Source: Pseudomonas fluorescens
GTDB lineage: Bacteria > Pseudomonadota > Gammaproteobacteria > Pseudomonadales > Pseudomonadaceae
Length of the DNA stretch: 64,000 bases
NCBI RefSeq assembly: GCF_000730425.1
Contig: NZ_CP008896.1
Location: 2,108,001 to 2,172,000, forward strand
Direction of reading: 5' to 3'
Shown: piece after piece, positions 3,416 to 64,000 of the stretch
Layout: every line of letters begins with the position of its first letter
Position numbering within the stretch: the stretch's first letter is position 1
Position numbers and translations under genes: made by a program
Notes under the pieces: generated by a model
What the model was told of the DNA's origin: nothing
Database searches by the model: none
The model's input: the letters and a program-made list of their open reading frames with translations, nothing else

Positions 3416-3823
3416 TCATTGATAAAGAGACAGTATCGCGGCGAGACTGGCTGACTTTTCGTCGCCGTCTCCCGCCAAAACGTACACAGTGTTTTTGGTT
3501 TCAAAGAGAAAGCCATCTTGGAATGAAATGGCCATGGTGCTGCGAACCCAATTTCCGTAATCGAAGCGTCCTCGGCTGTCTAGGATGACTTTTTCGGCGA
3601 AAACGAAGAGCGGCAGATGGCCATGAACGTGGATTTTGGTGAGATCCCCATCGCTCGCTATCGCGCGCACGATCGTCCACTGCTGGACGATGCAAAAGCC
3701 TTTGTTTGGGAAGCGGGTCTGCGCGATATGAATTAGCGCTTCTTGGCTTTCTCCAGATCCAGAGCGTGGCTCTCCGATGGTGGAGAGGAGCTCGCTGGCT
3801 GCCTGGATTTCTTCAAGTTCCAA
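3416..3823 (-). CDS. hypothetical protein (135 aa), TTG start
   Basis: The start is a TTG at 3823 preceded by AGAGGA at 8-base spacing, which is why this start is chosen. An N-terminal helix (ELEEIQAASELL) is followed by a beta-rich region. Its C-terminal end resembles that of the product at 2470-2838. No catalytic motif is seen and no function is assigned. It is the first gene of the small-gene series between the helicase and the XRE regulator. Confidence 0.6.
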   Translation of the reverse strand: MELEEIQAASELLSTIGEPRSGSGESQEALIHIAQTRFPNKGFCIVQQWTIVRAIASDGDLTKIHVHGHLPLFVFAEKVILDSRGRFDYGNWVRSTMAISFQDGFLFETKNTVYVLAGDGDEKSASLAAILSLYQ

Positions 3824-4028
3824 TCAAAAAATCCTCTGACAATACATGTGATATGTTCGGTGCTGAGTTCCGCTGAAACCGCTTGCTATCTGCCTGAAAA
3901 CTCTCTTGAGCTTATGACTACGCACCATTGCCCTAAGCGGGCAGTGCTCGACAGTTCCGATACTAACAGAAATTTGGGTTTATCGGAACTGCGGCGTTAT
4001 GGCTCTATCCTCGCTTTTAGGACAGATC

Positions 4029-4493
4029 ATGTCGCTCAAGAATGAGATTGCCGGGGCGATCAGAGCAATCCGGAGTATTCGAGGCGTCGACTACGGGAAC
4101 TTGGCAGACGTCATTGCAAAATCCAGTGTCGGCAACCTTGAGCAAGGAAAGCACAGCATCACGCTTGAAAAGCTGATCGAGCTTTCAAATTCACTTCAGT
4201 TCGATCCTGTCGCCCTGTTGGCCCTCTGCGTATCCATCCAGAATGACGAACCTGCTGATGCCACCATAGAGCGAGCAAGAGCTCAGTTAGCTTTGTTCAG
4301 AGCAGAGGGTGGAGAAGAGCTTTTTCGAAGCCAATTTGTCGGCAAAGAATTAAAGAAGCGGCCTCCAGGTAAGCCTAGGAACTCCAAGAATGCCGCAGCA
4401 GTCAGGGAGCTTAAAGCCTCGGGATTGAGTCAGGCAGAGATCGCGCACAAGCTCGGGTTGGCTAAATCAACTGTACATCGGTATTGGCAGTGA
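4029..4493 (+). CDS. XRE-type transcriptional regulator with a second C-terminal helix-turn-helix
   Basis: The product is 154 aa; the ATG at 4029 follows AGGA. The N-terminal 65 residues fit a lambda-repressor-like (XRE) HTH (LADVIAKSS...NLEQGKHSITLEKLIELSNSL). The last 25 residues (LSQAEIAHKLGLAKSTVHRYW) form a second HTH of the resolvase/Hin type. Two HTH units in one small protein suggest a DNA-binding regulator that reads two half-sites. It lies just upstream and on the same strand as the interrupted nuclease gene, so it may act as its control protein; this is inferred from position only. Confidence 0.75.
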   Translation: MSLKNEIAGAIRAIRSIRGVDYGNLADVIAKSSVGNLEQGKHSITLEKLIELSNSLQFDPVALLALCVSIQNDEPADATIERARAQLALFRAEGGEELFRSQFVGKELKKRPPGKPRNSKNAAAVRELKASGLSQAEIAHKLGLAKSTVHRYWQ

Positions 4494-4779
4494 GCCCCAT
4501 ATTTCCCAGATCGGTGCTGCTCTTGGTTGTGTCGAAAAAGACATTATTAGTTGTCGCACATCGATGATTATTGGGAACGTATCCCACATGAGGATTTAGC
4601 ATGATTTCAGTATCTCAAAGCCAGATCGATGACGAAGTTGCCCACGGTTACAAACCGCACGCTGTGGGTACTGGACGTATGCGTCCGGCCAACACACCTT
4701 CCTGACCCCGACGCCAAAGGCGATGGTGTCCACCTAATTTAAGTGGACACCATTTCTAGCCTTTTAAGCGGGTCTTTCC

Positions 4780-5112
4780 ATGCAGCCACAACGCCGTTCC
4801 TACTCCAAATCCTTCAAGGCCCAGCTCATTCAAGAGTGTGCCCAGCCCGGCGCTTCGATTGCCAGCGTCGCACTCAGCCACAGCCTTAACGCGAACCTCG
4901 TCCACAAATGGATTCGAGTGCAAACGCAGAAAGCCATGGCGCTGCAACCTGCTTTCGTTCCGCTACCCTTGCAGCTAGCCGGAGGAAATTCGCAAGCTGC
5001 ATCATCGAACATCTGCGTTGAAATCCAGCACCCGCGTGGCACCGTCAAAGTGAACTGGCCGACCGAAAGTGCTGCCGCCTGCGCCACCTTTCTGCGAGAC
5101 CTGTTGCGATGA
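4780..5112 (+). CDS. tnpA: IS66 accessory protein TnpA
   Basis: The product is 110 aa, the first IS66 frame. The N-terminus (YSKSFKAQLIQECAQPG...VALSHSLNANLVHKWI) is the HTH typical of IS66 Orf1. It is needed with TnpB for transposition in this family, although it is not the catalytic protein. The stop overlaps the tnpB start (ATGA), which implies translational coupling. Confidence 0.9.
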   Translation: MQPQRRSYSKSFKAQLIQECAQPGASIASVALSHSLNANLVHKWIRVQTQKAMALQPAFVPLPLQLAGGNSQAASSNICVEIQHPRGTVKVNWPTESAAACATFLRDLLR

Positions 5113-5444
5113 TCCGCATCGACACCATCTGGCTCGCCACCGAGCCCATGGACATGCGCGCCGGCACCGACACTGCGATGGCTCGGGTGGTAGCAGTGTT
5201 CGGTGCGGCGCAGCCGCACTGTGCTTATCTGTTTGCCAACCGCCGTGCCAATCGCATGAAAGTGCTGGTGCACGACGGGCTGGGCATCTGGCTGGCGGCG
5301 CGCAGGCTGCATCAGGGCAAGTTCTTCTGGCCGGGTTCCCGGCACGGTTCGCAGATAGAATTGGGCTCCGAGCAACTGCATGCTCTGGTGCTAGGTTTGC
5401 CTTGGCAAAGGGTCGGGCCAGGCAACGCGATTTCCATCGTATAA
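5109..5444 (+). CDS. tnpB: IS66 accessory protein TnpB
   Basis: The product is 111 aa. It shows the family hallmarks PMDMRAGTDT near residue 15, then LFANRRANRMKVLVHDGLGI and KFFWPG, the conserved core of IS66 Orf2. It overlaps tnpA by 4 bases. It is an accessory transposition protein of unknown biochemical role. The length matches the family (about 110-120 aa), so it appears intact. Confidence 0.92.
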   Translation: MIRIDTIWLATEPMDMRAGTDTAMARVVAVFGAAQPHCAYLFANRRANRMKVLVHDGLGIWLAARRLHQGKFFWPGSRHGSQIELGSEQLHALVLGLPWQRVGPGNAISIV

Positions 5445-5525
5445 CTTCTGCCATGCCCCATCTGGCTGTGCAATTGTCCGATCAGCCTATCGTTGGTTTT
5501 GACCTGTTCTGGCAAAATCGGCGGC

Positions 5526-7094
5526 ATGACTTCGCTCCCTGATCTCAATCACCTGACCCCTGAACAACTGCGCGCTCTGGCAGCGCAGTTGATGCAGCGT
5601 GTCGAGACGCTGGACCAACAAGTCGAAACAATGGGCAAGACCGTCGAGACCATGGGTAAGAGGATCCATCATGGTCAAACGGTGATCGAAAAGTTGAGCC
5701 ACGAGATCGCGCAGCTCAAGCGCTTCAAATTTGCCAAGCGTAGCGAGCAGTTGAGTCCGGAGCAGGCCAGCTTGCTCGATGACTTGATCGATACCGATAT
5801 CGCGGCGATTGAGGCTGAGCTTCAGGCCTTGCAAACAGCTCCAACTCCAACCGAGGCAAAGCAAAAGCCCAAGCGCGCTGCGTTGCCGCCGGAGTTTCCA
5901 CGCACCCTGATCCATCACGAACCGGACAACACTCACTGCCCATGCGGCTGCGCCCTCAAGCGTATCGGTGAAGACGTCAGCGAGAAACTGGACTACACGC
6001 CCGGCGTGTTTACCGTGGAGCGTCACATTCGCGGCAAGTGGGTTTGTGATGACTGCGAAACGCTGATCCAGGCGCCGGTTCCGGCGCAGGTCATCGACAA
6101 GGGCATCCCCACCGCCGGGCTGCTAGCCCATGTGATGATCGCCAAGTTCGCCGACCATTTGCCGCTCTATCGCCAGGAGTCGATTTTTGGTCGAGCCGGT
6201 TTGGCCATCCCACGCTCAACCTTGGCCCAATGGGTTGGCGTTACTGGCGTGCAGTTACAGCCTCTGGTGGATGCGCTGCGCGATGTAGTGCTCGGGCAGC
6301 AGGTCATTCACGCCGATGAAACACCCGTGCAGATGCTAATGCCGGGCTCGAAAAAAACTCATCGTTCCTATGTCTGGGCCTACGCCACCAGCCAACTCTG
6401 CGAAACAGCGGCTGTCGTCTACGACTTCAGCCCCAGCCGCGCCGGTGAGCATGCTCGTAACTTTCTGCAAGACTGGAAGGGCAAGCTGGTCTGTGATGAT
6501 TTCGGTGGCTACAAGGCCAGCTTTGAACTCGGCGTAACCGAAATCGGTTGCATGGCCCATGCAAGACGCAAGTTCTTCGAGCTACACGCCACCAACAAGA
6601 GCCAGCTCGCCGAGCAGGCCTTGCGCTACATCCAGTTACTTTACGAAATCGAAAGTGAGATCCGCGACCTTGAACCGGATTTTCGCCACCGAATACGGCA
6701 GGAAAAAGCTGTGCCGGTGATGGGTGCACTGCATGCCTGGATGATCGCCCAGCGCCTACTTGTGCACGATGGCTCGGCTATCAGCAAAGCACTGGATTAC
6801 AGCCTGAAACGCTGGACGGCGCTGTCGCGCTATCTCGATGACGGGGCCGTACCCATCGACAATAACTGGTGCGAGAACCAGATCCGGCCATGGGCGTTGG
6901 GTCGCAAGAACTGGCTCTTTGCAGGTTCACTGCGCAGCGGCAAACGGGCTGCGGCGATCATGAGCTTGATCCAGTCGGCGCGGCTCAATGGGCATGATCC
7001 GTATGCTTATTTGAAGGACGTCCTCACGCGCCTGCCGACGCAGCGGGCGAGTGAGATTGCGGAGCTGCTGCCGCATAGATGGCAACCGGTTTAG
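5526..7094 (+). CDS. tnpC: IS66 transposase TnpC (DDE)
   Basis: The product is 522 aa from the ATG at 5526. An N-terminal coiled coil (residues about 5-80, leucine-zipper-like) precedes a zinc-finger-like segment (CPCGC...CDDC) and a DDE domain with HADETPV, VCDDFGGYK and IDNNWCENQIRP, which supply the acidic triad. It catalyses excision and integration of the element. A longer in-frame start exists upstream, but this ATG matches the family N-terminus. The frame is uninterrupted. Confidence 0.93.
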   Translation: MTSLPDLNHLTPEQLRALAAQLMQRVETLDQQVETMGKTVETMGKRIHHGQTVIEKLSHEIAQLKRFKFAKRSEQLSPEQASLLDDLIDTDIAAIEAELQALQTAPTPTEAKQKPKRAALPPEFPRTLIHHEPDNTHCPCGCALKRIGEDVSEKLDYTPGVFTVERHIRGKWVCDDCETLIQAPVPAQVIDKGIPTAGLLAHVMIAKFADHLPLYRQESIFGRAGLAIPRSTLAQWVGVTGVQLQPLVDALRDVVLGQQVIHADETPVQMLMPGSKKTHRSYVWAYATSQLCETAAVVYDFSPSRAGEHARNFLQDWKGKLVCDDFGGYKASFELGVTEIGCMAHARRKFFELHATNKSQLAEQALRYIQLLYEIESEIRDLEPDFRHRIRQEKAVPVMGALHAWMIAQRLLVHDGSAISKALDYSLKRWTALSRYLDDGAVPIDNNWCENQIRPWALGRKNWLFAGSLRSGKRAAAIMSLIQSARLNGHDPYAYLKDVLTRLPTQRASEIAELLPHRWQPV

Positions 7095-7137
7095 TTGCGC
7101 AAGGCGGGATGCCCGGACGCATACTACTGGACTACCG

Positions 7138-8508
7138 ATGTTGCCGCTGAACGAGCTCGGGGATCGTGAATTCGAGATGCTGGTGTACTCGCTGATAGAG
7201 GCAAGGATTCAGCGCAATGACTATGCGAGCTTCGACCAAGTTGTATTGATGAAAGGAGTGGGTGAGCGTGGAAGGGATTGCCTTCTGTACCGCCAAGGCG
7301 ATGTGGCCGGGCTAATCCAATGCAAAAAGCTTCAGAAAAAAATGTCGCGACCAGAGGTGATGGAGGAAATAACAAAGTTTTTGATGTTTACCATCTCTGA
7401 AGAGGAATTGATGCCTTCGCCTGGGGCATTCGAATATCACCTTTACGCTAGCGGCGGTTACTTCGAGCCCGCTGCCACGCTGCTCTCATCGTTCAAGACT
7501 GAAAGCAAAAAGGAAGTTGAGTCCGGCAATGCACTCAGGATTATTCAGGGGCTGAAGGAAAAATACGCTACGTTCAAAGCCTATAACGAGCAGCAGGCAC
7601 TTGAGCACGTAGCACGAGCGCTAGACGCGATGACGGTGAAGCCGTTTACCGGCGTTGACCTGAATCTTAGCTTGGCTAGCTTCCCAGTCGTGATGTCGAA
7701 ATTTTTCAGGACGCTGCCAGTCTTGGATGTCACCAGCTTTGAAGAAATTCTTACTCAGAAGCTTGAGGAATCTGGCATAAAATTTCTGACAGATCAAAAC
7801 CTGAGCGATCTGTACAAGCGTCTGTCTGCGGTGCCTCCTGAATTCCAAGTCGCTTTGGGTAACGTCGATCTCTTTGGTTACTCGGAAAATTATTTCAAGT
7901 TTCTTGGCAAAGAAGGCTTTTCTGAACTGATAAAAAAGGTTTCTGACGTACGCCTTTTTCTAGACATCAAAACTCACGACTACGCCGCCTCGCTCATCAT
8001 GCCTGAAATGGTTAAAAAGCTCACAGAGCCTTACGTCCACACTGGGCGCGTGCTCCCGTTCACACTGAACGTGGTGGCCCAATATCTAAACAAGCGAATT
8101 CTGCCTAGTGTTATGTCCAGGGCGAGCCCTAGTGCGTCGCTTAAGCATATGCACCCTCAAATGGGGCTAACTAAGCAAACCTTGATGGATTCGATACTGG
8201 AGGAGTGTATTGAGAGCAGTCGGCGTTTCTTTGCCGGTGATTACAGCGGTTTTCCCGATCCCGATCCAGACAGGGAAAAACGTCTAGCACTGTTTGAAGG
8301 TATGCATGCCGGATGCAGCACCGATGCACAGCTAAAGGCTAGATTTCTAATCGACCTCCCTCTGATCATGCCAATTGTTGATGAGATTGAACGCACCATA
8401 ATCGCATCGGTGCCCCAAGTGCGTACCGTGGTGATCAATGACATGGCCTACTTCGACGACCAGGAGAAACTTAAACGGATCCTCACGACCATCAAGGCGA
8501 TTGAGTAG
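7138..8508 (+). CDS. residual 3' frame of the interrupted nuclease gene, possibly still translated
   Basis: An ATG at 7138, just outside the IS66 right end, opens 456 codons that retain the whole nuclease core (LGDREFEMLVYSL, GERGRD, IQCKKL) and the long unknown C-terminus. Only about 27 N-terminal residues would be lost. No strong Shine-Dalgarno is seen before this ATG, so expression would depend on read-through or a promoter from the IS. It is either a still-active truncated nuclease or a dead remnant. Confidence 0.6.
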   Translation: MLPLNELGDREFEMLVYSLIEARIQRNDYASFDQVVLMKGVGERGRDCLLYRQGDVAGLIQCKKLQKKMSRPEVMEEITKFLMFTISEEELMPSPGAFEYHLYASGGYFEPAATLLSSFKTESKKEVESGNALRIIQGLKEKYATFKAYNEQQALEHVARALDAMTVKPFTGVDLNLSLASFPVVMSKFFRTLPVLDVTSFEEILTQKLEESGIKFLTDQNLSDLYKRLSAVPPEFQVALGNVDLFGYSENYFKFLGKEGFSELIKKVSDVRLFLDIKTHDYAASLIMPEMVKKLTEPYVHTGRVLPFTLNVVAQYLNKRILPSVMSRASPSASLKHMHPQMGLTKQTLMDSILEECIESSRRFFAGDYSGFPDPDPDREKRLALFEGMHAGCSTDAQLKARFLIDLPLIMPIVDEIERTIIASVPQVRTVVINDMAYFDDQEKLKRILTTIKAIE

Positions 8509-49930: not shown

Positions 49931-51099
49931 GGAAACTCCGAACAAGTCTCCAAGTATGCTGAAATACAGCCTCACCACCTGACCCGAGTGCTTCATGAGC
50001 CAGATGAGCTTTTCCGATTTCGAATACGCGGGCAAGCGCAAGCAAACACGCCGCGAACGGTTCCTCGCCGAGATGGATCAGGTCGTGCCCTGGAGCGGTT
50101 TACTGGCGTTGATCGAGCCGTATTATCCGAAGGCTGGCGGTGGCCGCAAACCGTATCCGCTGGAAACCATGCTGCGCATTCACTTGCTGCAAAACTGGTT
50201 CTCGCTGAGCGATCCTGCCATGGAAGAAGCGCTGTATGAAATCACGCCCATGCGCCAGTTTGCGCACTTGACCCTGAGCGCGCCGATCCCTGAAGACACC
50301 ACGATCATGAACTTCCGGCACCTGCTGGAGAAACATAAGTTGGCGCCGGCGATCCTGGCGGTCATCAACGGTTATTTGCAGGAGAAAGGCCTCTCGCTGC
50401 GCCAGGGCACCATCGTCGATGCGACGATTATCCACGCGCCCAGTTCGACTAAAAACGAGGACGGTAAACGCGATCCAGAGATGCATCAGACGAAGAAAGG
50501 CAATCAATATTTCTTCGGAATGAAGGCCCATATTGGTGCCGACGTTGAGTCGGGGCTGGTTCACCACGTTCACGGCACCGCGGCGAATGTAGCCGATGTC
50601 ACTCAGGTTGCCGAACTGCTGCACGGCGAGGAAAACGCGGTCTACGCCGATGCTGGTTACACCGGTGTCGAGAAGCGCGAAGAGCATGAAAACCGTGAAG
50701 TGGTTTGGCAAATCGCCGCGCGACGCAGCACCTATTCCAAGCTGAGCAAGCGCAGCGTGCTGTACAAAGCCAAGCGCAAAATCGAGTACCTCAAAGCCCA
50801 GACACGGGCCAAGGTCGAACACCCATTTCGGGTGATCAAACGTCAGTTCGGTTATGTGAAAGTGCGCTTTCGCGGCCTGATGAAAAACACCGCTCAATTG
50901 ACCACGCTGTTTGCCTTGTCCAATTTATGGATGGCTCGAAAAAAGCTGATGGGTATGGGCTAATTACGCGCGTAACACGGAGAAATGGGCTGACAAGCTC
51001 GCCAAGGCGGCGCGTACGGGATATTTCGCGGTCAATAGCGCCAAATTCAGCGGGATTTTCAACTTGCCGCACGGTTGCGGCAAGTTGATCGGAGCTTCC
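49931..51099 (+). mobile_element. IS5-family element, copy A (1169 bp)
   Basis: Imperfect terminal inverted repeats: GGAAACTCCGAACAAG at the left and the complement of GTTGATCGGAGCTTCC at the right. CTAA, the known IS5 target, flanks both ends (49927-49930 and 51100-51103). A hairpin AACTTGCCGC/GCGGCAAGTT lies inside the right end. The related copy B is at 53484-54675. Confidence 0.9.
49995..50963 (+). CDS. IS5-family transposase (copy A)
   Basis: The product is 322 aa. The N-terminal block KRKQTRRERFLAEMDQVVPW is the IS5 signature. DDE residues are in RQGTIVDATIIHAPSS (D1), VYADAGYTGVEKRE (D2) and RAKVEHPFRVIKRQFGY (E). It is intact. The protein is closely related to copy B at 53628-54605 but clearly diverged, so the two are different elements rather than a recent duplication. 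Confidence 0.94.
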   Translation: MSQMSFSDFEYAGKRKQTRRERFLAEMDQVVPWSGLLALIEPYYPKAGGGRKPYPLETMLRIHLLQNWFSLSDPAMEEALYEITPMRQFAHLTLSAPIPEDTTIMNFRHLLEKHKLAPAILAVINGYLQEKGLSLRQGTIVDATIIHAPSSTKNEDGKRDPEMHQTKKGNQYFFGMKAHIGADVESGLVHHVHGTAANVADVTQVAELLHGEENAVYADAGYTGVEKREEHENREVVWQIAARRSTYSKLSKRSVLYKAKRKIEYLKAQTRAKVEHPFRVIKRQFGYVKVRFRGLMKNTAQLTTLFALSNLWMARKKLMGMG

Positions 51100-53483: not shown

Positions 53484-54675
53484 GGAAGGTCTGAAGTAAG
53501 CAGCCGTTTTTAACGGCCTCGCTGTCTGAGGTTCAAAAAACACCGACTTAATCGAAAATCAGACCTTTCCTCCTGTCAGTTCACTGTTTTTTGCGGAATA
53601 GCACCTTTTCAGGGCTCATTGTCCACATCACAGGCGCACCTCGCCTGCATTCAACAGTCGTTTTCGCATCATCCACAGGTTCGATAAGGCAAACAGTGTG
53701 GTCTGCTGCGCGGTGTTTTTCACCAAGCCTCGGAAGCGGACTTTCGTATAACCAAACTGGCGCTTGATCACCCTGAATGGATGCTCAACCTTGGCCCGGA
53801 CTTGAGCTTTCGCGTATTCGATTTTGCGGCGCATGCGACCGATCAGGCTCTTTTTTGCATGCTTCTTATAGCTGCTGGGGCGCGCTGCGATCGACCAGAT
53901 CATCTGGCGATGTTGATGCTCCGCACGCTTCTCCACGCCGGTGTAACCGGCATCGCCAGAGACGTAAGTTTCCTCGCCATGCAGCAACTGATCGACCTGA
54001 GTCACGTCCGCCACATTCGCCGCCGTGCCCACCACGCTATGTACCAGACCGGATTCAACATCGACACCGATGTGCGATTTCATCCCGAAATAGTACTGAT
54101 TTCCTTTCTTTGTCTGGTGCATTTCGGGGTCGCGTTTACCGTCCTTGTTCTTGGTCGAACTGGGCGCATGAATGATCGTCGCATCGACCACAGTTCCCTG
54201 ACGCAGCAGCAAACCTCGGTCGCCCAAATAGCCGTTGATGACCTGCAAAATCCCACCGGCCAGCTCATGTTTTTCCAACAGCCGGCGGAAGTTGAGGATC
54301 GTGGTTTCATCCGGAATCCGATCCAAATGCAGCCCGGCAAACTGGCGCAGAATCGTGGTTTCGTAGAGGGACTCTTCCATCGCCGGATCGCTGTAGCCGA
54401 ACCAGTTTTGCATCAGATGAACCCGCAGCATGGCCATCAACGGATACGCCGGACGACCGCCTTCACCCTTCGGATAATGCGGCTCGATCAACGCAATCAG
54501 GCCTTTCCAGGGCACGACCTGATCCATCTCAATCAGGAAACGCTCACGGCGGGTCTGCTTACGTTTGCCTGCGTACTCGGCATCAGCGAAAGACATTTGC
54601 TTCATCGGGGCTCAACCGTTCAGTTCGTGGGACAGCCGTATCTCACCAGATTTGGAAGTCTTTTTCAGAGTTTCC
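53484..54675 (-). mobile_element. IS5-family element, copy B (1192 bp), inserted in the att core
   Basis: Terminal inverted repeats: GGAAGGTCTGAA at the left and the complement of TTTTTCAGAGTTTCC at the right. TTAG (CTAA) is duplicated at both ends (53480-53483 and 54676-54679), the IS5 target rule. Removing it joins CCCCTTAG to GAGGTGAGTCAG, the att core followed by integrase leader, as seen intact at 19692-19720. Confidence 0.93.
53628..54605 (-). CDS. IS5-family transposase (copy B)
   Basis: The product is 325 aa. The signature KRKQTRRERFLIEMDQVVPW is followed by the DDE motifs RQGTVVDATIIHAPSS, VSGDAGYTGVEKRA and RAKVEHPFRVIKRQFGY. It is intact. It is related to copy A, with clear divergence in the N- and C-terminal parts. 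Confidence 0.94.
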   Translation of the reverse strand: MKQMSFADAEYAGKRKQTRRERFLIEMDQVVPWKGLIALIEPHYPKGEGGRPAYPLMAMLRVHLMQNWFGYSDPAMEESLYETTILRQFAGLHLDRIPDETTILNFRRLLEKHELAGGILQVINGYLGDRGLLLRQGTVVDATIIHAPSSTKNKDGKRDPEMHQTKKGNQYYFGMKSHIGVDVESGLVHSVVGTAANVADVTQVDQLLHGEETYVSGDAGYTGVEKRAEHQHRQMIWSIAARPSSYKKHAKKSLIGRMRRKIEYAKAQVRAKVEHPFRVIKRQFGYTKVRFRGLVKNTAQQTTLFALSNLWMMRKRLLNAGEVRL

Positions 54676-54812
54676 TTAGGAGGTGAGTCAGCTTGATCCT
54701 GCTCACTTCCTGAAACACCGCAAACCGCTGCTTTTAAAGGACCTATCTATTTTACTTGTGTCTTGAGGTTTCTCCTTGTAGCGTTCTGCATCATGAGAAG
54801 TGGGGACTGGAA

Positions 54813-56246
54813 TTGGCCACCAATACTGCTGACAAAAGCGTGAACGATCAAAAGCTCAAGGGCATGCCGCCTGCATCTAAGTTGACGGAAAGCTTGCCTG
54901 GCCGTTCCCGGGGTAGTCTTTTGTTCAAGCGCAGCCAAAGTGGTGCGATCAGCGCCTACTTCCGCTACCGGCTCAACGCAAAGGACACGATGATCTCCCT
55001 GGGCCAATATCGCTTGAGCGCCAGAGCGCCCGGGCTGGCGCTGTCCGAGCTCCGCGACAAAGCGGCAGAAATGGCATTGATTGCTTCCGAGCACGGCGAC
55101 GTTAAGGTGTACTTGGCGGCCAGAGCCGCCGCAGAGAAAACACAACGACAGGCCGTAGTGCTCGCGCAGCAGCTTGCTACGCGGCAAGGTAGCTTTGAAG
55201 AACTACTAAATGCATACGTCAAAGATCTGACCGCTCGCGGAAAGGTCAAGGCAAAAGAAGTTGAGCGCCTATTTCAGACACACGTGATCCAGCACCACCC
55301 AGATCTGATGGCGCATCCAGCAAAGTCCATCACCGGCGAAGACATTCATTTAGTAATGTGTGCGCTACTCGCCCGCAAGCCCAAAGGGCGTGGTATCGGG
55401 AACAAAGCGCAAACTGCCAACACTGACATGCGATCAACAGCTGCCAGTGTCCACCGATACCTAAAGGCTGCATTCAGCTATGGCAGCAAGGCACACCTTT
55501 CCTTGGATCGGGATGTAAGCGATTCGAAAATTTTCGATATTGGCGTCAATCCGGCTACCAAGGTCCCTACCCTAGCTAACACCCGCGGCGGCCAGACGGA
55601 ATCCTTGAGTCCAGAGGAGCTAGGTGAGCTTTTGCGCTACCTGGATACATTGCCTGCGCGGGAAATGGCGATCTGCAAAGGCCTAATCTATATGGGTGGC
55701 CAACGTATGGAGCAGTTGCTCCGCGTAACTTGGGAAGATACGTCCGATGACCTTCTGCATCTTACCGACGGTAAAGGACAAAAGGCTCAAGCATGGGATC
55801 ATCTGCTACCTATCACCGAACGGGTTAAAGAAATCCTAAAGCCTTTGTTTGAAAGCAAGATCGGACCAGGTCCGTTCTGTATTGGCCGGCGCTGCATCCG
55901 CCCTGACACTGCCGGTAAACGCTTCAGTAATGCCGGGAAAACTTTGAGTAGCGCAGGCAAGACTCAGTACTTCAGTTACGCGAATGTTCGGGTCAGCACT
56001 GAAACGCTGATGGCCTCACTCGGGATTACGAAAGAAATCCGCAGCTGGCTTTTGTCTCACGGACGCAGCGATGTGCAATCGGTTCACTACGACCGATACA
56101 GCTACCTGCCAGAGAAAAAGGCTGCACTGGAGTTATGGGGTAGGTACCTAGACTGCTTGTACGCGGAGAAAGAGTGGGAGCAAGGCAAGGTTGTTTTACT
56201 CAGTCGGAATCGGCGTCATGAGCACTCCGATAAGAAGGCGCCATAA
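54813..56246 (+). CDS. int: tyrosine recombinase (integrase) of island 2
   Basis: The product is 477 aa from a TTG at 54813. This start is chosen because the homologous remnant at 19855 is conserved from here, whereas upstream codons carry a stop there. An Arm-type N-terminus (RSRGSLLFKRSQSGAISAYF), a helical core-binding domain (residues about 120-250) and a catalytic domain follow. GGQRMEQLLRVTW holds the first catalytic Arg, LLSHGRSDVQ the box II region, and HYDRYSY the nucleophile Tyr. It acts on the tRNA-Arg(CCT) 3' end directly upstream. Confidence 0.92.
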   Translation: MATNTADKSVNDQKLKGMPPASKLTESLPGRSRGSLLFKRSQSGAISAYFRYRLNAKDTMISLGQYRLSARAPGLALSELRDKAAEMALIASEHGDVKVYLAARAAAEKTQRQAVVLAQQLATRQGSFEELLNAYVKDLTARGKVKAKEVERLFQTHVIQHHPDLMAHPAKSITGEDIHLVMCALLARKPKGRGIGNKAQTANTDMRSTAASVHRYLKAAFSYGSKAHLSLDRDVSDSKIFDIGVNPATKVPTLANTRGGQTESLSPEELGELLRYLDTLPAREMAICKGLIYMGGQRMEQLLRVTWEDTSDDLLHLTDGKGQKAQAWDHLLPITERVKEILKPLFESKIGPGPFCIGRRCIRPDTAGKRFSNAGKTLSSAGKTQYFSYANVRVSTETLMASLGITKEIRSWLLSHGRSDVQSVHYDRYSYLPEKKAALELWGRYLDCLYAEKEWEQGKVVLLSRNRRHEHSDKKAP

Positions 56247-57127: not shown

Positions 57128-57557
57128 GATGTAACTCCAAAAGAGGGATCTGGATGCCGATGGCCATCGCCTGTCCTAGGTGCTCAGCATGTTTGATGTA
57201 GCTGAATACTTCGACTCGATTGGCTACCGGGCGAGGGCCGTCGTCGAAAAGGCGATTACGAAGATTGAGTATGCCGAGCTCATCAGGGGCGTTTTCCGAA
57301 AATAGCACAAGGTGCCAACCACCATTTCCTTCCCAGCATTTCTCATCAGATAGCGAATGGGGAACGACATACGCCTCTTTGATCGGCAACACCTGCTGAG
57401 CGATAGTTAACATGAGTACGAAAGGACCAGCGCTTTCGTTAGAAAACGAAGCGCGAAGCTGTTCAAGCTGGGTCGCCAGATTGGAGATTTCTAAAGCACG
57501 CATCTGCTTACCAAGAGCTTGGATCTGACAAAGGAATTTTTCATGGTCCCGAGACAT
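57120..57557 (-). CDS. hypothetical protein (145 aa) downstream of traI
   Basis: The ATG at 57557 overlaps the traI stop (TAATG), so it is translationally coupled. An N-terminal helical segment (KFLCQIQALGKQMRALEISNLATQLEQL) is followed by a beta-rich part. No family is recognised. The position suggests a role in transfer or establishment. Confidence 0.7.
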   Translation of the reverse strand: MSRDHEKFLCQIQALGKQMRALEISNLATQLEQLRASFSNESAGPFVLMLTIAQQVLPIKEAYVVPHSLSDEKCWEGNGGWHLVLFSENAPDELGILNLRNRLFDDGPRPVANRVEVFSYIKHAEHLGQAMAIGIQIPLLELHHD

Positions 57558-60500
57558 TAGATCGATCTCCTGTAGCTATAAGTTGCTTCATCTTCGTCAT
57601 ACGAAGGTTGGGTTTCTGGCTGGGCAACCGGCCTTGTTGTCGGTTCTGCCAGAGCAACGGTTTCAGAATTCTGCACTTCTCGCTGGGCGCTCATCGCTTC
57701 AATACGCTTCAGGGCTTCGTTGGGATCTTCGCCAAGTTGCAGACCAACACGCTCGCGAACATCCTCGATCTGCGCACCAGCGAACTGGCTGACGAGTCGA
57801 GCATGACGCTTCACCGTAAGGCTATCGCCGCCTTGGTCGCGATCATAAGCAAGCGAAAAGCGCTGGATTTTATAGCGCTCGGCCAGGGCGATGATTGCCC
57901 CCTCAGTGTTTGGACCAGGTTCGCCAGTAGTGCCGATGAACAGGATCCGCTGCCGCTCTTCTGGGCTAGCCAACTGGTAGGTGCTCAGGGTGTCGACACC
58001 GCCCTCGCTGAAGCGGATTTCGGTGGGGTTCGCGCATTTCGGGTTAGCGAGGTAGACACCTTTTTCAGTTTCTGTCGTAAAACCCTTGAACTCACGTCGT
58101 TCGCCATTGATAACCTGAGCGCCGCGGTACTCATACCCGCAGAACTTGGCATTAGCATCAATGTGAGGAAACACGGCGGAGCCATGCCGGCTCGTACGCC
58201 AGCGCGTTTCGGCCAACACTTCGGACGAGATACCTCGCTCTTGGCTCAGATAGCTATCACGGCGAGACATGAATCCGAAAGTGCGGTAGTGGTTTTCCGT
58301 GCTGGTTGCGATTGTCTCTAGGCGCTCGCGTTCCTTCCTCTGTCGCGACTCTTCGCGTGCCCGATCAATACGGGCCTGCTCTTCCGCTGATTTACCCAGC
58401 GAAGGCAGAACGCCCCCCTGAAACGCACGAACATCGTCCTTGGCCTGGATGAAGGTGCCGCCACTGGCTTCCTGATAGAGCTTGAAGATGTCACCGCTCT
58501 TGCCCGAATGGCGGTCATGCCAGACCCAATTGTCATCAGCGGCCTGGTAAATGTCGTATTTCCCTGAGCCGTGGCGGAAAACAGCATGTCCTTTGTACGA
58601 GGCCTTCTTGTCGTACTCCATGCCAAGGTGAACAGCGTAGTCGGTCAGGTCAACGTCGCGTTTCATCGCGGCCACTTCGCGGGCGTCTGATGCTTTGTCG
58701 TATTTCATCGAGCGTGCTACAGCAGAACCAGGAACCTGCCGTCGCACTCGACCAAGAGGCTGTCGATCAGCGAGTGTGTTATCGGGCAATAGACCCTCAC
58801 GTCCCCTTCCGGAACCTGCTGCCAGATCGCATGTGGACAACGTACGCAGACCGTCTGAGGAAACTCGCCCTGCAGGGCGTTTAATGTTGCCGAGCGGACG
58901 GGAGAAGGCTTCTTCGTTTGCGGCGTTACCGGCGCCGGCGGCGCGGTCAAATTGGCCGAGGCTGCCGGCGACTCGCTGGCCTGCGGCGCCGGCTCGGGAC
59001 TCGGGTCGGGAAACTCCATCGACGGCGGCGACAGGTCGTCCATCAACGCGGGGGTACCGGCCGAGGCCGGCAAGGGTGGCAGGTCGGGCAGGATCAATTC
59101 GAACATAGCGGGCCTCCTGAGGCTCAGGCTTGATCAGTTTCAGCTTCGTGGTGAATAAGGCGGGCTTCATTCCCTGGAGCGTTTCGCAAAGGTCGCGGCG
59201 TTGCTCTAGGGGCACGGATGAGCCGGGGTTTGTCCAGGGTTCAACTTCAATACCTAGAGCGGGGTTTTCTGCAGCTACAACAGCAACGCGGCGGGCGTCG
59301 AGCGGCCAGGTCTGTTCGTTGGCGCGAAGGTCGACCACGGCAGCGCCGAAGGCCTTGGCGTGGTCGATCTCGGTTTGAGCGGGCGGCAGGACCGTGACGG
59401 ACTGACGGGGCTTTTCTTGAGGTTGTTCCTTCGCTTGGCCGGGGAACTGGAAGAGTGGTGAAACACCCTGGAGGCGATCGAGGACAGACAGTTGTTGAGG
59501 GGCTAGCTTGAACGGCTGGCCGGTGTGCACGGATGCGCGAATTGCTTCGCGCACTTGAGGCATGAGATCGAGGGCGTTTTCTTTGTAGATGAATTGCGAC
59601 GCCGACTTCTTGAATGGGAGCCAGTTCGCTTCACTCAGGTACGTTTTGCAACCGTGGATTCCGCGGGTATAGGCGACATACCAAGCCTGTAGAGAGGCGT
59701 AGGAGGACGGCAGGTAGTAGGACTGCATGACAGTCATACCCTGTGCCTTGTGTCCGGTCATGGCGTAGCCGTACTGCAGCGACTCGTACTCGCTGGAGTT
59801 GATCTTGACTGACTTCCCATCGTCCCGGGCGATCGTGAACAGAATCTCCTCGATCGGCTCGCCGTCGACTTCGCGGGCGATTCGCTCGATACCCAATACG
59901 GTGCCGAGATCCCCGTTATAGATGGGCTCTTTTTGGGCATCCTTGGCCGTTTTGCGTAACAATAGTCGATCGCCAATCGCGACCTGGATCGTGCAACGCT
60001 CGCCCGGCAGCACTTCGGTTTCGATGCTAACGCTGCCCCCTACGCTCAATTCACTGCGAGCGAATCGGGCATCGCGGATTTTGTTGTTGAGCGCTCGAAC
60101 CTGTTCGTTAGTGTCGGCGAGAACGAGGATCTGGGACCAGTCCAACTCTCGAACGACGCCATCTTTTCCTGTTAGGCCGGCTTTCATGTCACCGAAAACA
60201 TCGCCAACCAGCTCGTCAGCCTCGTTCACACCGTCCGCGAAAACCCTGAGCTGGTCGTCGCGCTGCATATGCCGAATTGCATCGCTCACCTTGCCTTCAT
60301 ACAGGGCCTGGGCAGTCGGTTTGAACTGGTCTACCTGACGGGCGATCGTTTCGATCTTCGCGCAGCGGTCGCCAACAGCGTCATGCAGGAGGCCGAACAG
60401 TGCGGCGGTTTCTACGGCGTCATGCTGGTTTCTGTCACCCACGCAGATCAGGCGGGCACCGGCCTGGTGGCAAGCCACTACTAGGTTATGCATCTGATAT

Positions 60501-62449
60501 GTGTCCAGCATGCCGGCCTCATCACACACGACGATATCACCACGTCCAATGAGGTCCTGCTTTTTGACGCGCTCGCCGGCCTGCTGAGCGGCCAAGGCCT
60601 CCTGGTGCTTAATGAGCAACGAATGGACAGTCTGAGCCTGGATGCCGGTCGACTTCGCCAACTCCGTCGCCTGCTTGTTTGCAGGCGCAACGCCAATGAC
60701 GCGGCGCCCCTGCGCCTTGAACGCCTCGGCATATACGCGGAAAGTCGGCGCCATGGTGGCCGACTTGCCCACGCCAGCGGCCCCCTTGAGGTATGTGTAC
60801 TGGCCTGGCCCAGTCAGATCGTAGGCAGCTTGGCGTTGCTCCAGACTAAGCCTGAAGGGCTTTTCACCCGGTTTCTGGGTCGACTGTTTTTCTTTCTCGT
60901 AGCCATCGATCACCAGGTCTACGAGGGTCCGGTCGACGTTCCAACTCGGATCATCAAGGCCGGCATGAACGGCTTTTAGGCAGTCAGCTTCGAGGGTGAT
61001 TAGCTCTTTCGTCGTGTACCGCTTCGACGGCATCCGGCCGTGTTCGTCGGGCTGCTGGGGGATTTCGATGAGTCCGAGTTGTTTGAAAATCTCCGACTTG
61101 GTTGCTTCGATTTCATCGAGTCCACCTTTGCCAATAGTCAGGTGCGCAGCTGCAGAATCGATCGCGAACTCATCGATCACGGTGGATCCACGAAACACCA
61201 TGCGCTGCAGTTCAGCGAGACTCGGAGCCTGGAGCTCTTTAGCTGTAGATGCTCTCAGCTTGATTGTAGGAATCGCTTCGCGCCAATGGGCATCCAAGCT
61301 GTCACCTAGCTCAATGTCCTTCGCATCGCGGCTTCGGACAGCGATCGCCTGAGCTGCAGCTTGGCCAGAGGTGGCCATAGTCTTCTTCTCGGCCTGGATT
61401 TGCTCGCTGCGCTTAGAAAATTCGGCAACAAGTTCCTTCGACACTGAAGATTCATTGATGCGCAGGCCGTGACCGCTCCAATCAACGACCATCGCCGATG
61501 CCAACTCGGGTAGTTGTGCCTGGAGACGCTGAAAAAAGGCCACGTCAAAGACGGCCCCGAACTCCTTCTGGGTCTTGTATAGCCATCCCGCATCGAGGGT
61601 TAGGAACTTGCCGTCGACGGTGCGAACGAAGTTCGGCCGCTCTAGATGTACATGCAACTGGGGATCAGGGAAGTCCTGACCAGGGGCGCGACGTGCTGTG
61701 CAATGAGCATATGTCAGGGTGACGCATTCGCCGGTTACAGACTCTGCGCCCTGAGCGCCTTCACGTCCGCGAATCCGACCAGTAAGGTGCTCGCGCTCAA
61801 TCGCATCGTTGACGGCTCCCATCATGCATTCCTGGATCACGCGACGGGTTTGGTCGTCGGTCTGTGCCCAGTAGATACTGATGGACTTCTGCATGGACAC
61901 GCACGAGCTGAAGCCAAGGACAGGATCCGTTGCCGATTTTTCTTTGCCCTCCTTCTCCAGTCGCTCCAGATCACCGGCGTCGAGCTGCTTTTTCGAGGAC
62001 GGGTTTGCCTTCTTTGATTCAGCTTCCTGAATAGCCTTGTCGATGGCGTTTTGGCGCTTCTCATCGAGGAACGCCTCACCAGTGCGCGGATTGATGCCAC
62101 GGAAAAGAGCTAGGTAATCACCGTCCTGGGGATGCTCACCGAGGTCCAGCTTGTTGGCCAACGGGCCGGCAATACCCGACGCCAAGGTGTCGTTGCCGGA
62201 CTTGTGGTAGTAGTCCTCGCGCCCTGTGCCCTGGTCGCCTTCCACCTGACTGACGATCGCTGCGATCTCGGCATCGACTTTCGCCAGTTCGGCAGCCATT
62301 ACTTCATCTGTCACGCCACGCTCTGCGCCCAGAGTAATGCGCTCCTCACGTAAGGCCTGAAGCTCCTTCAGTTTCTTTTCGAAGTAGCTGGCTTTGGCTG
62401 CAAAATTGCCGGCCGTGGTCTTCTGATTGCTCATCCCGTAGTGGCTCAT
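57557..62449 (-). CDS. traI: MobF conjugative relaxase-helicase TraI with DUF3991/Toprim-like C-terminus
   Basis: The product is 1630 aa; the ATG at 62449 overlaps the previous stop (ATGA). The relaxase domain has the catalytic Tyr pair Y80-Y81 (EDYYHKSGN) and the three-His site H249, H266, H268 (QLHVHLERPNF). A coiled insertion of about 50 residues precedes the tyrosines. The SF1 helicase has Walker A GAAGVGKSAT (near 556), CDEAGML (near 642) and GYAMTGHKAQGMT. A low-complexity linker (about 1110-1250) leads to a DUF3991-like part and a Toprim domain (SEGGVDTLS; AYDRDQGGD). It nicks and unwinds DNA for transfer; the Toprim part may prime or process DNA. Confidence 0.93.
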   Translation of the reverse strand: MSHYGMSNQKTTAGNFAAKASYFEKKLKELQALREERITLGAERGVTDEVMAAELAKVDAEIAAIVSQVEGDQGTGREDYYHKSGNDTLASGIAGPLANKLDLGEHPQDGDYLALFRGINPRTGEAFLDEKRQNAIDKAIQEAESKKANPSSKKQLDAGDLERLEKEGKEKSATDPVLGFSSCVSMQKSISIYWAQTDDQTRRVIQECMMGAVNDAIEREHLTGRIRGREGAQGAESVTGECVTLTYAHCTARRAPGQDFPDPQLHVHLERPNFVRTVDGKFLTLDAGWLYKTQKEFGAVFDVAFFQRLQAQLPELASAMVVDWSGHGLRINESSVSKELVAEFSKRSEQIQAEKKTMATSGQAAAQAIAVRSRDAKDIELGDSLDAHWREAIPTIKLRASTAKELQAPSLAELQRMVFRGSTVIDEFAIDSAAAHLTIGKGGLDEIEATKSEIFKQLGLIEIPQQPDEHGRMPSKRYTTKELITLEADCLKAVHAGLDDPSWNVDRTLVDLVIDGYEKEKQSTQKPGEKPFRLSLEQRQAAYDLTGPGQYTYLKGAAGVGKSATMAPTFRVYAEAFKAQGRRVIGVAPANKQATELAKSTGIQAQTVHSLLIKHQEALAAQQAGERVKKQDLIGRGDIVVCDEAGMLDTYQMHNLVVACHQAGARLICVGDRNQHDAVETAALFGLLHDAVGDRCAKIETIARQVDQFKPTAQALYEGKVSDAIRHMQRDDQLRVFADGVNEADELVGDVFGDMKAGLTGKDGVVRELDWSQILVLADTNEQVRALNNKIRDARFARSELSVGGSVSIETEVLPGERCTIQVAIGDRLLLRKTAKDAQKEPIYNGDLGTVLGIERIAREVDGEPIEEILFTIARDDGKSVKINSSEYESLQYGYAMTGHKAQGMTVMQSYYLPSSYASLQAWYVAYTRGIHGCKTYLSEANWLPFKKSASQFIYKENALDLMPQVREAIRASVHTGQPFKLAPQQLSVLDRLQGVSPLFQFPGQAKEQPQEKPRQSVTVLPPAQTEIDHAKAFGAAVVDLRANEQTWPLDARRVAVVAAENPALGIEVEPWTNPGSSVPLEQRRDLCETLQGMKPALFTTKLKLIKPEPQEARYVRIDPARPATLAGLGRYPRVDGRPVAAVDGVSRPESRAGAAGQRVAGSLGQFDRAAGAGNAANEEAFSRPLGNIKRPAGRVSSDGLRTLSTCDLAAGSGRGREGLLPDNTLADRQPLGRVRRQVPGSAVARSMKYDKASDAREVAAMKRDVDLTDYAVHLGMEYDKKASYKGHAVFRHGSGKYDIYQAADDNWVWHDRHSGKSGDIFKLYQEASGGTFIQAKDDVRAFQGGVLPSLGKSAEEQARIDRAREESRQRKERERLETIATSTENHYRTFGFMSRRDSYLSQERGISSEVLAETRWRTSRHGSAVFPHIDANAKFCGYEYRGAQVINGERREFKGFTTETEKGVYLANPKCANPTEIRFSEGGVDTLSTYQLASPEERQRILFIGTTGEPGPNTEGAIIALAERYKIQRFSLAYDRDQGGDSLTVKRHARLVSQFAGAQIEDVRERVGLQLGEDPNEALKRIEAMSAQREVQNSETVALAEPTTRPVAQPETQPSYDEDEATYSYRRSI
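58717..59106 (-). CDS. overprinted gene inside traI (129 aa, Pro-rich N-terminus, CxxC C-terminal domain)
   Basis: A second minus-strand frame within traI starts at ATG 59106, preceded by a perfect AGGAGG at 6-base spacing (59113-59118). Residues 1-70 are acidic and Pro/Ala-rich (LPDLPPLPASAGTPALMDDL). Residues 80-129 look folded, with CVRCPHAIWQ, VRVYCPITHSLIDSLLVECDG and FLVLL. Codon third positions in this frame are mostly G or C. The TraI frame over the same bases is Arg/Ala/Gly low-complexity. RP4 encodes TraH inside traI in a second frame, a precedent for a relaxosome factor. Function here is unknown. Confidence 0.75.
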   Translation of the reverse strand: MFELILPDLPPLPASAGTPALMDDLSPPSMEFPDPSPEPAPQASESPAASANLTAPPAPVTPQTKKPSPVRSATLNALQGEFPQTVCVRCPHAIWQQVPEGDVRVYCPITHSLIDSLLVECDGRFLVLL

Positions 62450-62880
62450 CGCTCGATCTCCATGCCTGTCTGCTCGGCAATGAGGCGATCCATAACCATC
62501 GGCACGAGCCGATTGAGCATCGGCTCGACGGTGCCGGCGAGCAGTTCAGGCCGGCGTTCAGCCTGGCTGGCGAGAACCTGCAACAGCAGATCAGGAAGAG
62601 CAGAGCCCAGAAGGGAAGAAACGGACTGGGTGATTGCGCCTGCCATCGAAGCCACAACCGGACCATCGAGGAGAACGGGAACAGGTCGGGAAGGCTCGGC
62701 GCTGAAACGCTGCGCAGCCATGAAGCCGGCGATTTCTTCGTCTGTGCGCAGGGACATGAGGGCATCGAGCACGCGGCCTTGAGCAACGCCCAGGCGAGCC
62801 GAAAGGCGTTCCAGACGCACTGCCGCAACTTCATCCAGGTACTGGGTCGAGGTCTTCGCCCCGGCCTTCTTCCGCGCCAT
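62446..62880 (-). CDS. probable relaxosome accessory protein
   Basis: The product is 144 aa. It overlaps the traI start (ATGA). An N-terminal basic segment (RKKAGAKTSTQYLDEVAAVR) is followed by helical stretches (LERLSARLGVAQGRVLDALMSL; VEPMLNRLVPMVMDRLI). Position directly before a MobF relaxase fits a DNA-binding helper such as TrwA or TraJ-like proteins. This is inferred from position, as no family is recognised. Confidence 0.65.
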   Translation of the reverse strand: MARKKAGAKTSTQYLDEVAAVRLERLSARLGVAQGRVLDALMSLRTDEEIAGFMAAQRFSAEPSRPVPVLLDGPVVASMAGAITQSVSSLLGSALPDLLLQVLASQAERRPELLAGTVEPMLNRLVPMVMDRLIAEQTGMEIER

Positions 62881-63223
62881 TTTCCTTTTCCCTTCTGAGA
62901 ACGCTTCTCAGGTAGACGGCTTTAGCCGGCGTACCTTGCTTTTGCTTTGTTGCTTTTCCGGCTTGGAGGCCGCGCACAGCGCGGGCTCCGGGCCGACGCG
63001 AAGCACCCGAAGGGTGCAGATGTGTTAACGAAAGCTGTATATATACAAGCATATCGCATCACTTTAAGCAAGTTTTGCTTGACTAGCACTAGTTTGCAAC
63101 TAATATGAACCCTAAGCGGTCAACCTTTGCAGCTTGTTTGCAATAAACCGCCAACTAGAAGCCGAACCTTTGGTAGAGTTAGCAAGCAGTTTTAAACAAA
63201 CGCAGCGACCATAGGTGAATGCC
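62881..63223. promoter_or_regulatory. divergent control region, candidate oriT/operators
   Basis: This 343-bp gap holds no convincing gene. It has a perfect palindrome TGTATATATACA near 63037, an inverted repeat AAGCAA-GTT-TTGCTT near 63067, CTAG-CA-CTAG near 63084, and three TTTGCA motifs between 63093 and 63141. It lies between the relaxosome operon and a divergent plasmid-type operon, the expected place for oriT and promoter/operator sites. No nic site is claimed. Confidence 0.45.
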
Positions 63224-63778
63224 ATGTTTGACCGACGCACAGACGCCGAACGCGCCCGTGATGAGCAGGACCAGCTGGAGTGGATGCGGATGCAGCAGGA
63301 AGAGGCCGATCGCAAAACGGCGGCATTGAAAGCCGAGCTGGAGCGTATGAAGGCCGCCGCTGAATCTGGCAGTGGCCAGAAGAACGTAAGGGGAAGCGTC
63401 ACCAAAGCTTTGCTGCCGAGGATCGAAATCCTCCGCGAGGCAACGCGCTTAGGAACACCGATCACGCAACAGCAGGAAATGCTGGAAAGGGCAGGAATCG
63501 TTGTTAGCTACAACAGCTTGCGCAAGTTCATCCAGAAATTCCTGGCTCGCGAGTACCGAGAGTTTCTGGCGAACGTACGAACGACCGGAGCTGATCCTGA
63601 TTTTGGGCGTGAGTTACACCCTGAAGTCATCCGCACAAACACCCCTGAAGCCTTCGATAAGCGACCAGCAGAAACAACAAGCATTAAGGAAGAAAGCGGT
63701 TCAACTGCAGGAAATATTGACTTAGAGCGGGCGGCAACCCTCGAAAGTTTCTCTAGAAATCAACGGGAAAACCCATGA
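63224..63778 (+). CDS. plasmid-type coiled-coil protein (184 aa)
   Basis: The ATG at 63224 has AGG upstream; a GTG at 63215 is an alternative. Residues 5-60 form a charged coiled coil (ARDEQDQLEWMRMQQEEADRKTAALKAEL). The middle part (KALLPRIEILREATRLGTPITQQQEMLERAG, then SYNSLRKFIQKFL) resembles the DNA-binding or TraJ/Stb-like segments of mobile elements. No function is assigned. Its stop overlaps the next gene (ATGA), so the two are coupled. Confidence 0.75.
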   Translation: MFDRRTDAERARDEQDQLEWMRMQQEEADRKTAALKAELERMKAAAESGSGQKNVRGSVTKALLPRIEILREATRLGTPITQQQEMLERAGIVVSYNSLRKFIQKFLAREYREFLANVRTTGADPDFGRELHPEVIRTNTPEAFDKRPAETTSIKEESGSTAGNIDLERAATLESFSRNQRENP

Positions 63779-64000
63779 GCAAGAAGGAAGAGAAAATGGC
63801 AAAAGCAGCAGCAGTTGCTCACCTGGTGGAAATGGACGACCTTAACCTCGATTCGTCGTGGCTCACTGCATCGCGAATCCGCCCGCTGCAACTCCCAGTT
63901 GGTAGTGACCCTGGCGCGTCGATTGAACACCTGATCTACGGCAGCGGGCTGGACAGCTTCGTTTTGGACATCGGTGGCAATGAGACAGCGAGCAAGACCA
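63775..64000 (+). CDS. partial plasmid-type protein, possibly StbB/TraL-like
   Basis: An ATG at 63775 overlaps the previous stop and the frame is open to the window end (75 codons). SFVLDIGGNETAS near residue 65 resembles the second motif of ParA/StbB-like ATPases, but no P-loop is seen in the N-terminal part, so the family is uncertain. The coupling with the upstream gene suggests a two-gene stability or transfer operon. Confidence 0.55.
   Translation, partial: MSKKEEKMAKAAAVAHLVEMDDLNLDSSWLTASRIRPLQLPVGSDPGASIEHLIYGSGLDSFVLDIGGNETASKT

Follow-up and report, generated by a model that had tools for sequence, protein, structure and literature searches.

A traH-like gene overprinted within the MOBF relaxase gene traI of Pseudomonas fluorescens

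The traI gene in a 64,000-nucleotide stretch of the Pseudomonas fluorescens chromosome (hereafter, the window; source genome, 6.06 Mb) contains a second long reading frame on the same strand. Is this frame a gene, and if so, of what kind? The first-pass annotation, made from the letters alone, had proposed that 129 codons are overprinted on traI in another register, that AGGAGG precedes their start at 6-base spacing, that their third positions are mostly G/C, and that they encode CxxC, a Cys in VYC, and a Cys in VECDG. An ORF survey of the window located the 129 codons wholly within the 1630-codon traI ORF, and the proposed features were all confirmed, as listed below.

57557..62449, minus strand: traI, 1630 aa, MOBF relaxase; traH overlaps codons 1115-1245.
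58717..59106, minus strand: traH-like CDS, 129 aa, ATG start, +1 relative to traI.
59113..59118, minus strand: Shine-Dalgarno (SD) sequence AGGAGG, with the ATG (59106-59104) 6 bases downstream; in the TraI reading it is part of P-Q-E-A.
58744..58848, minus strand: C4 motif consisting of Cys87 (58848-58846), Cys90 (58839-58837), Cys107 (58788-58786), and Cys121 (58746-58744), with Trp95 between.

The encoded protein, referred to here as TraH, is acidic (pI 4.39), with a Pro/Ala/Ser-rich N-terminal half and a Cys-rich C-terminal third in which the cysteines are arranged as C87-x2-C90, C107 (VYC), and C121 (ECDG). For the bases of the overlap, third-position G/C was 79% in the TraH frame and 51.5% in the TraI frame, the latter compared with 64.1% for the whole of traI. 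Searches of the 129-aa frame against Pfam, NCBIfam, PHROGs, and PDB sequences gave nothing usable. Nevertheless, the frame at 58717..59106 is real: conservation of the start and SD sequence, frame-specific constraint, codon randomisation, and homologues all support a true overprinted gene, as described below.

The host protein carries a TrwC relaxase domain (PF08751, aa 73-392), an SF1 helicase domain (AAA_30, 534-737), and DUF3991 (1399-1463), and matches the MobF model NF041492 above its cut-off. Based on these domains, the window TraI is a MOBF (TrwC-type) relaxase-helicase, not a MOBP relaxase, and belongs with TrwC, F TraI, and TraA_Ti. The IncP Tra1 relaxosome module (MOBP TraI, TraJ, TraK, and TraH) was considered for the locus and rejected, because the relaxase matched PF08751 and NF041492 instead of the MOBP family PF03432. 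Over the overlap, TraI reads as an Arg/Ala/Gly-rich stretch with the helicase on one side and DUF3991 on the other. The low-complexity linker described in the first-pass annotation was present; for the Toprim part described beyond it, Toprim_2 was matched by Pfam in the relatives L035 and L078 and not in the window TraI, where the next domain is DUF3991.

Nine traI genes of near-clade Pseudomonas were codon-aligned, with L042 included from its open piece onward. The overlap DNA differed in all nine; eight were 93.5-99.5% identical there, and L043 was 81.7-84.5% identical to the others. Synonymously varying TraI codons numbered 26 of 129 in the overlap versus 726 of 1452 outside (Fisher p = 2e-11), and the fraction in the overlap, 0.20, was lower than the lowest value (0.389) among 1235 other 129-codon stretches. 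Inside the overlap, the fraction was 0.27 for the first 75 codons and 0.11 for the last 54; the 300-codon flanks gave 0.53 and 0.49. TraI amino-acid variability in the overlap (0.43) was above that of the flanks (0.32 and 0.25). Substitutions were further assessed by counting distinct changes against the consensus, taken as the ancestor, with transitions given an assumed weight of 3, which is a simpler scheme than a full likelihood model. In the last 54 codons, changes silent in TraI and altering TraH amounted to 7 per 239 weighted opportunities (0.029; flanks, 0.169 and 0.160), whereas changes altering TraI and silent in TraH amounted to 23 per 193 (0.119; flanks, 0.043 and 0.034), about a threefold rise. 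For the whole overlap, the two rates were 0.061 and 0.085, respectively, and no stop-creating change was seen in either frame across the overlap of the nine genes. This comparison of synonymous and nonsynonymous change in both frames indicates frame-specific purifying selection on the TraH frame.

A constraint from RNA or DNA structure, or from a regulatory signal, might instead be acting on the overlap, and the suppression of synonymous change would by itself suit an RNA element. However, the suppression is frame-specific, and the TraH-silent changes are raised in the C-terminal part, which a base-level constraint does not favour; moreover, the start, the SD sequence, and the cysteines are conserved across distant lineages. 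The probability of a purely nucleic acid signal is therefore very low.

It should also be considered that TraI alone is selected, that the second frame is a by-product of high G/C content, and that its similarity to IncP TraH (see below) mirrors homologous TraI DNA. When the TraI protein was fixed and its codons were redrawn from the usage of the gene itself (1000 versions, kinship of the loci ignored), the TraH profile score was reached by 0 of 1000 versions in each of the 13 loci. Stop-free versions accounted for 8.2% for the window and for 0.2% to 61% at the other loci; accordingly, openness of the frame alone is weak evidence. In favour of a by-product, GC-rich genes often contain long +1 frames (61% of the versions stop-free in L072). 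In the reverse randomisation, TraH was fixed and the TraI frame was scored (13 loci, 1000 draws each). The observed TraI-frame score was reached by no draw in 6 loci, by 1 to 17 draws in 5, by 398 in L075, and by 630 in L072. This mixed result indicates that the TraI-frame likeness among the loci is partly unexplained by the TraH codons. That the two frames occupy the same bases, and that in six of the 13 loci this likeness beats the TraH-derived expectation outright, speaks for a by-product, although the unexplained part is most simply shared ancestry of related rows. On the other hand, the overlap has lower rates of TraI-silent and higher rates of TraI-changing substitution than its flanks, no randomised TraI gave the TraH score, and TraI residues are variable at positions where the cysteines are constant. 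Furthermore, the window TraI shares three short weak stretches (E >= 0.006) with the TraI of the Polaromonas plasmid pPNAP06 and none with that of the IncP plasmid PB5. These findings make a mere by-product highly improbable. Few TraI residues recur over the overlap (LR, RR), and they are largely dictated by TraH-frame codons; for example, TGC GAC GGN, which encodes C-D-G in TraH, reads as R-R in TraI. Among 25 sequences, TraH core identity exceeded TraI-frame identity in 290 of the 300 pairs.

The first-pass annotation had cited RP4 traH as a precedent and claimed no sequence relation. Such a relation was found, to IncP TraH, for which the annotated traH of plasmid PB5 (L002) stood in for RP4's own record. 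The single-sequence match between the window TraH and IncP TraH was weak (E 0.2). Profile A1, however, constructed from the MOBF copy of strain 8Z (L035), the window copy, and four database proteins that share 66-93% identity with the window copy, with no IncP sequence among them, matched PB5 TraH at E 2e-13 and the pPNAP06 frame at E 4e-20 in searches within one locus each. In genomes, the same profile matched copies in G339 (E 6.5e-10) and G925 (E 1.8e-7), both lying in relaxases that look IncP-like by N-terminal sequence. The pPNAP06 frame was also the best plasmid match to the window TraH (E 5e-8). In 25 aligned members, including PB5 and 11 that are close to the window, C-x2-C, W, C, and C-D were invariant, a pattern derived in this analysis and not from a literature source. 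The pI was below 5 in 23 of 24 TraH copies. No Pfam or NCBIfam model matched the IncP TraH protein.

Like the window copy, PB5 TraH is acidic and is encoded within the relaxase gene in the +1 phase with an SD sequence before its ATG. The two proteins (119 and 129 aa, respectively) have C-x2-C-P...W...C...CDG in common and are 35% identical in the 25-member alignment. They differ in the host relaxase, which is MOBP for IncP and MOBF for the window, and in location, that of PB5 lying between LPD7 and TraI-like_C and that of the window between the helicase and DUF3991. The pPNAP06 frame (L001), for which its annotation has no separate gene, resembles the window TraH in phase (+1) and sequence (43.6% identity over query 52-123) but is located in a MOBP relaxase between TraI_middle and LPD7, and has 71 aa from its ATG and a pI of 6.5.

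If the MOBF copies had arisen independently by convergence, the likeness to IncP TraH would be a chance zinc-knuckle pattern. Four cysteines and a tryptophan are indeed a short pattern, and the single-sequence E value is weak; nevertheless, the profile matches within the locus and in the genome, the pPNAP06 match, the same motif order, phase, and acidity, and the similar SD-ATG layout render convergence very unlikely. Judged from its sequence, the window frame is a member of the RP4-type (IncP) TraH family in a new host gene, having in common with it homology, an other-frame location within a relaxase gene, a small acidic product, and the C4 pattern. Adding the conserved start and SD sequence, the purifying selection, the +1 phase, and the joint presence or absence with the linker (see below), we estimate a probability of roughly 0.8 that the frame is a real gene of this family, internally initiated from its own SD sequence on the traI message.

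The start site was compared in 27 aligned rows, among which L038 repeats L033 and L070 repeats L043. An ATG with an SD match of at least 4 bases located 6-11 bases upstream was present in 25 rows, and AGGAGG at 6 bases in 12. The exceptions were L081, whose first ATG has no SD match, and L071 (G761). In the latter, the TraH frame upstream of 6233 meets a natural TAA after its first 17 codons, whereas TraI is uninterrupted and the Cys part is retained; as its frame reads, this is a truncated or restarted TraH copy. Apart from this early stop, the loci read at the DNA level included no traI gene with a similar linker and without the second frame. In L042 (Pseudomonas bharatica CSV86, 3620-8507), the relaxase ORF is broken, since the TraI matches fall in three different frames; the TraH frame there is open. 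The available part of a description of the CSV86 islands does not mention TraH (PMC9298801).

Homologues were found among proteins, plasmids, and genomes. With the window protein as the query, 7 proteins were obtained, which share 66-93% identity with it and carry either no name or the label hypothetical. Against plasmids, 391 records matched at E <= 10, none spanning 80% of the query; the best 60 comprised 57 on traI or relaxase genes, several of which have traH annotated as an additional feature, along with 2 on a "DNA processing protein" and one on an LPD7 protein. Profile A1 at E <= 1e-4 had matches in 3 of 390 genomes at the order level, 16 of 398 within the genus, and 4 of 398 across the phylum, the window's own genome being counted each time. 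The relaxase domain of the window was found in 6 of 396 Pseudomonas genomes, all six among the 16 with the TraH frame. The joint profile A2 (25 sequences) matched 491 proteins at E <= 0.001, and the best 120 of these included several named TraH. A scan of the named genomes yielded 7 loci, all in Pseudomonas. Another search gave matches at E <= 1 in 71 of 95 genomes; among the matches listed, 4 were taken as real (E <= 7e-19) and the rest were set aside as noise (E >= 0.006). With the 8Z copy as the query, 849 plasmid records matched at E <= 10, including those of Campylobacter (210), Neisseria (52), and Vibrio (13), many with E values that are meaningless alone. Eight of these plasmids were read, and all eight contained the frame in the +1 phase with C-x2-C and had no separate TraH gene in their gene tables. 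Two scans of viral contigs gave 12 and 76 pattern matches, of which none was confirmed.

The TraH frame was in the +1 phase relative to the host gene at all 35 loci read, which include two repeats and several close relatives (26 called by script, L076 read separately, and the 8 fetched plasmids). Nevertheless, it occupies different interdomain linkers in different relaxases. The Pfam placements, made for loci other than L074, L076, L077, L079, L080, L082, L083, and L097, were as follows.

PB5 (TraI codons about 514-632) and L091: TraH between LPD7 and TraI-like_C.
L073 and L092: between Relaxase and TraI_middle.
pPNAP06: between TraI_middle and LPD7.
MOBF hosts tested (window, L072, L035, and L078): between the helicase and DUF3991 or Toprim_2.
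L090 and L096: at the very end, extending past the relaxase stop.

LPD7 was the sole domain recognised in L075 and L081. The spacing between Relaxase and TraI_middle was 12 residues in PB5 versus 111 in L092, where TraH takes up 94 of the 111. A similar difference was observed between MOBF proteins. Over some 1360 aligned residues, P0180 and P0181, known from protein sequence alone, share 73-76% identity with the TraI of L035 and L078; their linkers, however, have 40 and 35 residues versus 128 and 131, and the gap of 88-96 residues coincides with TraH frames of 94 and 97 codons. Because P0180 and P0181 lack almost exactly the TraH block, the TraI "linker" is essentially TraH's own DNA. It had been suggested that a linker absorbs the cost of the second gene; the overlap does lie on a linker, but the direction is better reversed, as the two close relatives without the TraH block are also without the linker. 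A strict motif for the TraI-side trace of TraH matched 42 of 60 MOBF proteins, which were obtained by a search scoring just the 7992 candidates with the most words in common. The 18 misses comprised 15 with a linker of 190-200 residues and a variant motif (by eye), one that is too short (P0177), and 2 without the block. For the DNA of a close relative without TraH, the search gave none: 12 plasmid records matched the helicase part only, and 3 of 293 genomes matched.

An overlapping gene is generally regarded as tied to the gene that hosts it. The position, the phase, and the TraH-less pair suggest instead that the block may have been transferred between relaxases. We consider it somewhat better than an even chance that TraH is a travelling dual-coding block, which arose once and then moved, as an in-frame insertion, from linker to linker among several relaxase types, namely the MOBP relaxases of IncP, IncX4, and Campylobacter plasmids, LPD7 relaxase-like proteins, and MOBF relaxase-helicases. 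The phase would then always be +1, and gain or loss of the second gene would mean gain or loss of about 90-130 linker residues in the first. The block, consisting of TraH and a tolerated Arg/Gly/Ala linker, has probably passed between relaxase classes, and its phase would be kept on transfer because its other frame is already open. If this is true, TraH is not locked to its host gene and may be a rare overlapping gene moving between host genes.

What TraH does was considered from the known systems. In the available parts of the sources, RP4 TraH is an acidic protein encoded in another frame within traI that stabilises TraI-TraJ at oriT, and its nested gene on IncP plasmids has been on record from 1990 at the latest (PMC7314908); TraH of RK2 is counted among the best characterised auxiliary transfer proteins (PMC4175270), and that of an IncP-1 beta plasmid is a relaxosome stabilising protein (PMC3614916). 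The TraH proteins in the accessible parts of PMC7690428 and PMC12857230 are other proteins of the same name. Among the titles, abstracts, and passages surveyed, which took in few subscription journals and preprints, none described an overprinted TraH in a MOBF relaxase. The novelty is in the host, a MOBF relaxase-helicase rather than a MOBP relaxase.

Our best reading, drawn from sequence comparison, is that TraH is probably an acidic, C4-metal-binding accessory protein of the relaxosome, carried as a dual-coding block. It would be expressed from the traI message by internal initiation at its own SD sequence. The C-terminal C4 part would bind a metal, probably zinc, and form a small fold, whereas the Pro-rich acidic N-terminal half would be disordered. 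The AlphaFold model was weak (mean pLDDT 59; 78-79 for residues 91-110; low in the N-terminal half) and is compatible with a predicted disordered tail and a small metal-bound knuckle. Foldseek against the PDB gave 115 matches at E <= 10, which were set aside since the model is weak and none reached E <= 0.001. By analogy with RP4 TraH, the protein may bind its own relaxase, directly or via the upstream accessory DNA-binding protein, and stabilise the relaxosome at oriT. RP4 traH is reportedly dispensable for transfer in laboratory matings, which counts against this reading. A real TraH-like protein with another task, e.g. in regulation, anti-defence, or the recipient, is possible but unlikely; retention of the family across very different relaxases suits a task independent of the relaxase fold, and no TraJ is recognisable upstream of the MOBF relaxase, whereas at the loci read TraH lies wholly or in part inside a gene for a relaxase or relaxase-like protein, which argues for a link to the relaxase. 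Selection on TraH in a non-homologous relaxase class, together with its being unlisted in other conjugative plasmids, suggests that TraH is a general conjugation gene, overlooked in annotation because another gene contains it. Relaxase pairs with and without TraH render its role directly testable.

The region upstream of traI contains the following features.

62446..62880, minus strand: 144-aa ORF with a 4-base overlap with the traI start; candidate relaxosome accessory protein by position only.
62881..63214, no strand: stretch between divergent ORFs; putative oriT/promoter region, judged from position (ORF layout) only.
63775..63999, plus strand: start of a ParA/StbB-like ATPase gene, with weak matches below curated cut-offs, running beyond the window (L036:11776-12609).

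The 144-aa ORF had no Pfam or NCBIfam match at E <= 0.01. A 187-aa ORF (63215-63778) and the weakly ParA/StbB-like gene oppose traI. Comparable neighbours of relaxases were observed on plasmids, namely StbB in L094, TraL in L095 and L096, and an ArsA-related ATPase and TraK in L092. Beyond the window, the same chromosome encodes a T4CP-like protein, and a DotA/TraY-like protein was found at L037:219-2402 (53.4 bits versus a model cut-off of 100); from their sequences, the two hint that an IncI-like transfer system accompanies the MOBF relaxase. No tRNA was found within the window. An ORF at 54756-56246 (plus strand) looked integrase-like by eye, with no Pfam or NCBIfam match at E <= 0.01. Two similar transposase-like ORFs in opposite orientation, 49995-50963 (plus strand) and 53628-54605 (minus strand), flank the 51-53.6 kb segment as judged by eye.
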